From: Chloroflexota bacterium
Lineage (GTDB): Bacteria > Chloroflexota > Dehalococcoidia > Lucifugimonadales > UBA826
Assembly: GCA_002718095.1 (NCBI GenBank)
Contig: PBDP01000004.1
Location: 198,870 to 207,309, forward strand
Reading direction: 5' to 3'
DNA length: 8,440 nucleotides
The position numbers and the translations under genes were made by a program. Below, one piece after another: positions 2,538 to 3,516 of the stretch (positions are counted from its first letter, which is position 1; the number at the start of each line of letters is the position of its first letter). Below the pieces are notes generated by a model. The model saw only the letters and a list, made by a program, of their open reading frames with translations, ran no database searches and was not told where the DNA came from.

Positions 2538-2566
2538 TTGACAGAACAATTGTTCTGTTCTAAAAT
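2538..2566 (+). promoter_or_regulatory. Near-consensus sigma-70 promoter for the 81-aa gene
   Basis: TTGACA (2538-2543, perfect -35), a 17-bp spacer and TAAAAT (2561-2566, 5 of 6 matches at -10). The predicted transcription start near 2573 leaves a leader of about 15 nt with the Shine-Dalgarno sequence GAGGTG at 2578-2583. It is the strongest promoter-like sequence I found in the window. The spacer is filled by the 2541-2558 palindrome, which suggests a strong promoter kept under repression. Confidence 0.7.
2541..2558. promoter_or_regulatory. Perfect 18-bp palindrome with GAAC-AATT-GTTC, candidate LexA (SOS) box
   Basis: ACAGAACAA is followed directly by its exact reverse complement, TTGTTCTGT. 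The core GAAC-N4-GTTC (2544-2555) is the form of the LexA/DinR box known from Bacillus and Actinobacteria. It starts directly after the -35 hexamer of the rightward promoter and covers the -35 zone of the leftward one, a classic repressor position. Whether LexA in this organism recognises this form is not shown here. Another dimeric repressor could bind it. Confidence 0.6.
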
Positions 2567-2576
2567 GTTCTAAATA
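2557..2576 (+). repeat. Two tandem 10-bp repeats carrying extra GTTC half-sites
   Basis: GTTCTAAAAT (2557-2566) is followed directly by GTTCTAAATA (2567-2576), identical in the first eight bases. With the palindrome's own GTTC (2552-2555) this makes three same-direction half-sites at 5-bp and 10-bp intervals. The 10-bp step would place the last two on one DNA face over the -10 element and transcription start. They may be extra operator half-sites or chance in AT-rich DNA. Confidence 0.4.
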
Positions 2577-2587
2577 TGAGGTGATTC

Positions 2588-2833
2588 ATGGCAAACTATT
2601 ATAAAACTAAGAATATGTTCGAAAATAATAACTCAGTTAATGAGACTGGTAATGAATACGCAAATCTAAATGAAGGAATTGAAGTTGTTTATATGGGAAA
2701 TGTCTTGGGAGGACCCTCAATTGGATCTGCAGGTAAGATTATGAAAATATATGCACGGAAAGCTCTTGTTGATATGGGGGCTCTTGGTACTTGGAATGTT
2801 CCTTATTGTTTTCTAACGGCTACTGCTGCGTAG
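2588..2833 (+). CDS. Small protein of unknown function, possible SH3-like beta barrel
   Basis: An 81-residue protein that I cannot assign to a named family. Residues 1-28 are polar and asparagine-rich, probably flexible. Residues 29-78 look like a compact all-beta domain: alternating strands EVVYMG, GKIMKIYA, KALVDMG and TWNVPYCFL separated by glycine turns (GNVLGGPSIGSAG at 37-49). This pattern is reminiscent of small SH3/KOW-like barrels that bind nucleic acid or protein, but that is an inference. There is no signal peptide or membrane segment. The ATG has a strong Shine-Dalgarno sequence (GAGGTG, 4-nt gap) and a near-consensus promoter with a palindromic operator just upstream, so it is very likely a real, regulated gene. 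It begins a rightward unit with a possible 21-aa peptide and a membrane protein. If the operator is a LexA box, this would be a DNA-damage-induced gene. Confidence 0.8.
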   Translation: MANYYKTKNMFENNNSVNETGNEYANLNEGIEVVYMGNVLGGPSIGSAGKIMKIYARKALVDMGALGTWNVPYCFLTATAA

Positions 2834-2985: not shown

Positions 2986-3516
2986 ATGACTTTGGAAGAA
3001 ATAATAGTTGTTTCGGTAAGGCTATTAGGTTCGTTACCTGTACTTAAATATGCTTTTTTGGGATCTGTATTTGCTGTTCTTATTGATCTTTCTGACTTAT
3101 TCATAATAGGGAATTTAGATTTAGGAGGAGTCAGAAATTATCAAGAATTTGATAAGGTTTTAGATCTTGTTTATATGGGTACTTTTTTATTAGTTTCTCT
3201 TAGATGGGAACGGAAAGAAAAACTCATTTCAATTTTCCTTTTTGCATATCGATTGATCGGACTTATTCTTTTTGAATTCACAAGTGAAAGATACCTATTA
3301 TTGTTATTCCCTAACGTGTTTGAGTTTTGGGTTATAGGTATAACTTTCTTAAAATTTAGAAAAAAACATAAAATTATTCCTGATTCTAGTTTGATAAAGG
3401 TTTTTTTAGGATCTTTCATTTTGAAATTAATACAAGAATGGATTTTGCATTGGAATAAATTTTTAGATAATTATGCAATGGGAGATATCCTATCTGTTCT
3501 GAAGGATTTACTATAA
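2986..3516 (+). CDS. Multi-pass membrane protein of unknown function
   Basis: An integral membrane protein of 176 residues (188 if the upstream GTG at 2950 is used). I see about five hydrophobic segments, near residues 22-42, 60-74, 80-98, 104-124 and 135-155 counted from the ATG. Striking polar patches lie in or beside them: DLSDLF, LDLGGVRNYQ, FAYRLIG, FEFTSERYL, FPNVFEFW and KLIQEWILHW. Such charged and aromatic motifs suggest a specific functional core rather than a plain anchor, but I cannot name a family. I prefer the ATG at 2986 because the hydrophobic protein starts naturally there (MTLEEIIVVSVRLLGSLP). Its Shine-Dalgarno sequence is weak, and the 12 extra residues include a CHKC pair with no visible partner. 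It is probably co-transcribed with the 81-aa gene, since no strong promoter or terminator separates them. Confidence 0.75.
   Translation: MTLEEIIVVSVRLLGSLPVLKYAFLGSVFAVLIDLSDLFIIGNLDLGGVRNYQEFDKVLDLVYMGTFLLVSLRWERKEKLISIFLFAYRLIGLILFEFTSERYLLLLFPNVFEFWVIGITFLKFRKKHKIIPDSSLIKVFLGSFILKLIQEWILHWNKFLDNYAMGDILSVLKDLL

Follow-up and report, generated by a model that had tools for sequence, protein, structure and literature searches.

LexA control of a promoter in the genome of a SAR202 bacterium is well supported by comparison with relatives, and the small gene behind this promoter very probably serves as a LexA-controlled effector of the SOS response. The window, that is the whole stretch of 8,440 nucleotides that was analysed, corresponds to C4:198870-207309 of a 1.44-Mb genome, and its relevant features are collected in Table 1. 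Among promoter-like sequences in the window, TTGACA-17-TAAAAT matches best (11/12). The preliminary description of this DNA had located in it a perfect 18-bp palindrome with the core GAAC-AATT-GTTC, followed by a short leader and a Shine-Dalgarno sequence, and these elements are all found again, the Shine-Dalgarno sequence being GAGGTG, a few nucleotides 5′ of the ATG. The element is nevertheless bigger than was stated there: the conserved block extends to about position 2572, covers 35 bp (2538-2572) and includes the direct repeat GTTC-TAAAAT-GTTC around the -10 hexamer. This repeat is possibly a second operator and a candidate LexA site.

Table 1. Features of the promoter region and of the genes behind it (positions in the window)
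Feature	Position	Strand	Basis or remark
-35 hexamer TTGACA	2538-2543	+	Nearly all orthologous promoters have a TTGAC-type hexamer 5′ of the box
Perfect 18-bp palindrome ACAGAACAATTGTTCTGT	2541-2558		GAAC-AATT-GTTC at 2544-2555
LexA-type operator (predicted) AGAACAATTGTTCT	2543-2556	.	Within the palindrome; 16.2 bits with the lexA-trained matrix
17-bp spacer	2544-2560		Between TTGACA and TAAAAT
Direct repeat GTTCT-AAAAT-GTTCT around the -10 hexamer	2557-2571	+	Possible second operator
-10 hexamer TAAAAT	2561-2566	+	Promoter match
Small SH3/KOW-like protein gene, 81 aa, candidate regulated gene	2588-2833	+	Orthologues in relatives; AlphaFold barrel
Possible downstream gene, orphan hydrophobic 176-aa ORF	2986-3516	+	Longer GTG start at 2950

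Neither the palindrome nor its core is significant when taken alone, because perfect palindromes of at least 18 bp arise in 14 of 200 Markov-resampled windows (7%) and the core shows no genomic excess. GAAC-N4-GTTC is not enriched in the 1.44-Mb genome (10 sites versus 17 for the reversed control), nor is an excess seen in the host genome for AGNAC-N4-GTNCT (10 versus 11) or in a two-mismatch scan (88 versus 91). The full form AGAAC-N4-GTTCT has a single site in the genome, which is that of the window, and its reversed control has 3. Besides lexA and the window site, the motif matches examined in the host genome are mostly intragenic and, given the lack of a genome-wide excess, the regulon is unreadable from motif counts. 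Judged by sequence comparison, the significance of the element rests on its position and its conservation. The frequency of palindromes in resampled windows is what speaks for a chance palindrome within a constitutive promoter, an explanation that is refuted by the preservation of the element in many families of the order while its flanks have diverged, and that retains practically no credence.

The host genome contains one lexA match (176 bits, over the cut-off) and one recA match (522 bits). The encoded LexA retains its cleavage site, with Ala-Gly in NIAAGNPLP, and the Ser/Lys dyad, with Ser in GESMID and Lys in TLKHF. LexA-type boxes are found upstream of both genes: the lexA promoter reads TTGACAC-AAGTACATTAGTTCT-GATAAT and is accompanied by a second box, AGGACAAATGTACT, while recA is preceded by AACACATCTGTTCT and AGAACAAATGTGTT. 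These boxes are degenerate and less perfect than that of the window. Across the order, most lexA promoters contain RGAACATNNGTNCT. A matrix was built from 28 lexA promoters, with the small-gene promoters left out (consensus AGAACATATGTTCT); the window site scores within the range typical of lexA boxes, and no other site of the window scores above 8.1 bits.

The same matrix gives 12 bits or more in 36 of 44 regions upstream of the small gene, versus 0.6% of shuffles, and in none of 27 regions upstream of canonical ftsZ (FtsZ1). By eye, a LexA-type box adjoins a TTGAC hexamer in all but one of the 44 orthologous promoters. Identity within the home family amounts to 96% for the 35-bp element and to 49-54% for its flanks. 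The downstream repeat takes the form GTTC-N6-GTTC in 22 and GTTC-N7-GTTC in 9 of the 33 orthologous promoters tallied (31/33 in total). Of 96 genomes, 27 contain the composite pattern GTNCTGTTCTANNNTGTTCTA, with 29 sites in all, nearly all of them 5′ of the small gene; the reversed control has 3 sites. Two variations were also noted. In L088 and L041 (G036, G069), two complete boxes, separated by about 30 bp and exemplified by GAACACCTGTTC and AGAACTGATGTTCT, replace the GTTC direct repeat. Two copies of the small gene, each with a composite promoter, are present in G002 (C25, C1) and in G054 (C1, C2); those of G054 are situated close to the ends of contigs and may be a single copy duplicated in the assembly.

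With a palindrome lying over the promoter, a host LexA, boxes at lexA and recA and a promoter conserved in relatives, the operator belongs, on sequence criteria, to the GAAC-N4-GTTC LexA family. The SOS reading of the preliminary description thus gains support from the boxes in the same genome, from the fit to the lexA matrix and from the preservation of the palindrome in orthologous promoters. Two other assignments of the site have been considered. A different dimeric repressor, recognizing a site similar to GAAC-N4-GTTC, might account for the GTTC-repeat composite, which is essentially specific to the small-gene promoter and does not appear in the promoters of lexA or recA, and some genomes do encode extra LexA-like proteins; this is nevertheless improbable, as a matrix derived from lexA promoters alone fits the site, the host genome has a single lexA match and the partners of the small gene are damage genes. 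It is less probable still, and indeed very unlikely, that the box belongs to the divergent SDR gene (1723-2475), whose start is about 70 bp away: the -35 and -10 hexamers read towards the small gene, and the box still stands 5′ of that gene in families with a different neighbour in place of the SDR gene.

Under LexA control, a LexA dimer would be bound in undamaged cells to AGAACAATTGTTCT, which fills the spacer between the -35 and -10 hexamers, and would block RNA polymerase. Upon damage, the self-cleavage of LexA would be set off by RecA filaments, and its release would let a strong promoter express the small SH3-fold protein. The latter would act as a damage-response effector, most likely by holding or remodelling the FtsZ ring for as long as repair lasts; in the window's family, its target would have to be the sole FtsZ present.

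Within the order, 46 of 98 genomes carry orthologues of the small gene, and none of the sampled genomes of the class outside it does; the named relatives with this gene belong to the SAR202 cluster (Dehalococcoidia, Chloroflexota). The protein combines a variable N-terminus with an invariant G-V-Y-G..GP..G..G..G-W-P-L pattern, the conserved core residues being G30, V33, Y35, G37, G42, P43, G46, G49, G67, W69, P72 and L76. AlphaFold predicts a disordered N-terminus and a five-strand barrel over residues 30-80 (core pLDDT ~90) of the SH3/KOW/Tudor type, and no Pfam, NCBIfam or PHROG family fits. A phage origin was considered and rejected: relatives are absent from viral contigs and PHROG matches are at chance level only.

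The preliminary description had placed the promoter in front of a small operon of unrecognised genes. Whether the locus is an operon is uncertain, because the next ORF (2986-3516), for which no family match was obtained, has no relative in 16 homologous regions; it is possibly a lineage-specific addition to the small-gene transcript. That the genes are unrecognised holds for the window. In relatives, however, the small gene is linked with two kinds of partner, an FtsZ paralogue and an SplB-type radical-SAM protein, and it is from these operon partners that we infer a damage-response effector.

The FtsZ paralogue is the commonest partner of the small gene, lying directly 3′ of it on the same strand in 18 genomes of 11 families, with 35-322 bp between the end of one match and the start of the next. 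It scores over the TIGR00065 cut-off, and its GTPase (GGGTGTG) and T7-loop (N-x-D-x-x-D) motifs are intact in all linked copies. The C-terminal anchoring peptide D-L/I-P-P-F-L-R (DLPPFLR) is absent from all 18 linked copies; 29 of the 30 best-scoring FtsZ copies of relatives have it, and so does the host FtsZ, whose gene has no LexA box upstream. In a tree, the linked copies, together with those of G059 and G023, form a group distinct from both canonical FtsZ and a further set of paralogues (100/100, branch 1.15). In these two genomes (L142, L143), the divergent paralogue lies directly 3′ of the LexA box AGAACGTCTGTTCT and no small gene is found nearby. The further clade (L129-L137, L139-L141, L144 and L145, from 14 genomes) has neither LexA boxes nor the C-terminal peptide. 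In the window's family, all 16 genomes have a single canonical FtsZ match and no paralogue, and the small gene is kept.

The second partner is an Rv2578c/SplB-like radical-SAM gene, which follows the small gene in G036, G028 and G085, three genomes that represent two families. In a further genome (L217, G041), the composite SOS promoter stands directly 5′ of such a gene and the small gene is missing. These radical-SAM proteins score below the NCBIfam equivalog cut-off. An action of the small protein on FtsZ-based division is the leading inference, held with slightly less than even confidence. Its support is indirect, because no member of the window's family has the paralogue, the small gene is found without it elsewhere too and other genomes have a repair-type partner. 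These last two observations speak for a tentative alternative, which keeps the LexA operator and sees in the small protein a DNA-repair accessory, such as a DNA- or protein-binding SH3/Tudor adaptor, whose linkage to the FtsZ paralogue reflects shared induction only. Fold neighbours that include KOW, Tudor and PWWP nucleic-acid and chromatin modules point the same way; this type of fold is, however, too common to indicate DNA binding, and no functional evidence was drawn from the Foldseek matches (Spt5 KOW, Tudor and restriction-enzyme barrels). Against a repair accessory also stands the predominance of the FtsZ paralogue among the partners.

As regards the division role, SAR202 bacteria are reported to lack ftsW and ftsI (PMC11994032), and with them the usual enzymes that build the wall at the septum, so that a checkpoint acting on FtsZ itself would make sense. 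It may tentatively be proposed that the SOS checkpoint of SAR202 consists of a LexA-controlled, tailless FtsZ paralogue and its SH3-like partner, the paralogue co-polymerising with the main FtsZ or displacing it and so halting division; in the window's family, the small partner alone would act on FtsZ. No LexA motif or SOS division checkpoint was found described for SAR202 in the literature searched and, as far as that literature goes, the module behind the operator is undescribed.

Comparison with known systems places the operator closest to the Gram-positive-type LexA (DinR/SOS) box of B. subtilis and M. tuberculosis (PMC3323433), with which it shares the GAAC-N4-GTTC core, the palindromic form, the overlap with the promoter and the related boxes at lexA and recA. 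It differs in its host group, the SAR202 Chloroflexota, where lexA boxes are often AGAACATNNGTACT, and in the added GTTC-N6/7-GTTC direct repeat on the -10 hexamer. In the promoters with a seven-nucleotide gap, this repeat has the form of the alphaproteobacterial LexA motif GTTC-N7-GTTC (PMC8565304); unlike that motif, it accompanies a palindromic box, and it is a candidate LexA site. For the radical-SAM partner, the parallel is with splB and Rv2578c, splB being a documented SOS gene (PMC8565304, PMC3323433); such a gene is absent from the window locus, and the copies of relatives fall short of equivalog level.

The small protein itself resembles the SOS division inhibitors SulA, YneA, SidA and SosA in being encoded behind a LexA-type operator, with a link to division provided by gene neighbourhood. 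It departs from them in having no Pfam or NCBIfam match, including no sequence match to the curated families of SulA, YneA and SidA, and in being often encoded with an FtsZ paralogue. It also contrasts with the membrane-anchored YneA in its SH3-like barrel, with no predicted helix; according to the title of PMC13396833, known checkpoint proteins such as YneA act on FtsW, which SAR202 is reported to lack. The module is easily located and tested through its conserved 35-bp promoter and, if the proposal is true, a LexA-controlled small protein acting with a tailless FtsZ paralogue would represent a different way to stop division after DNA damage.
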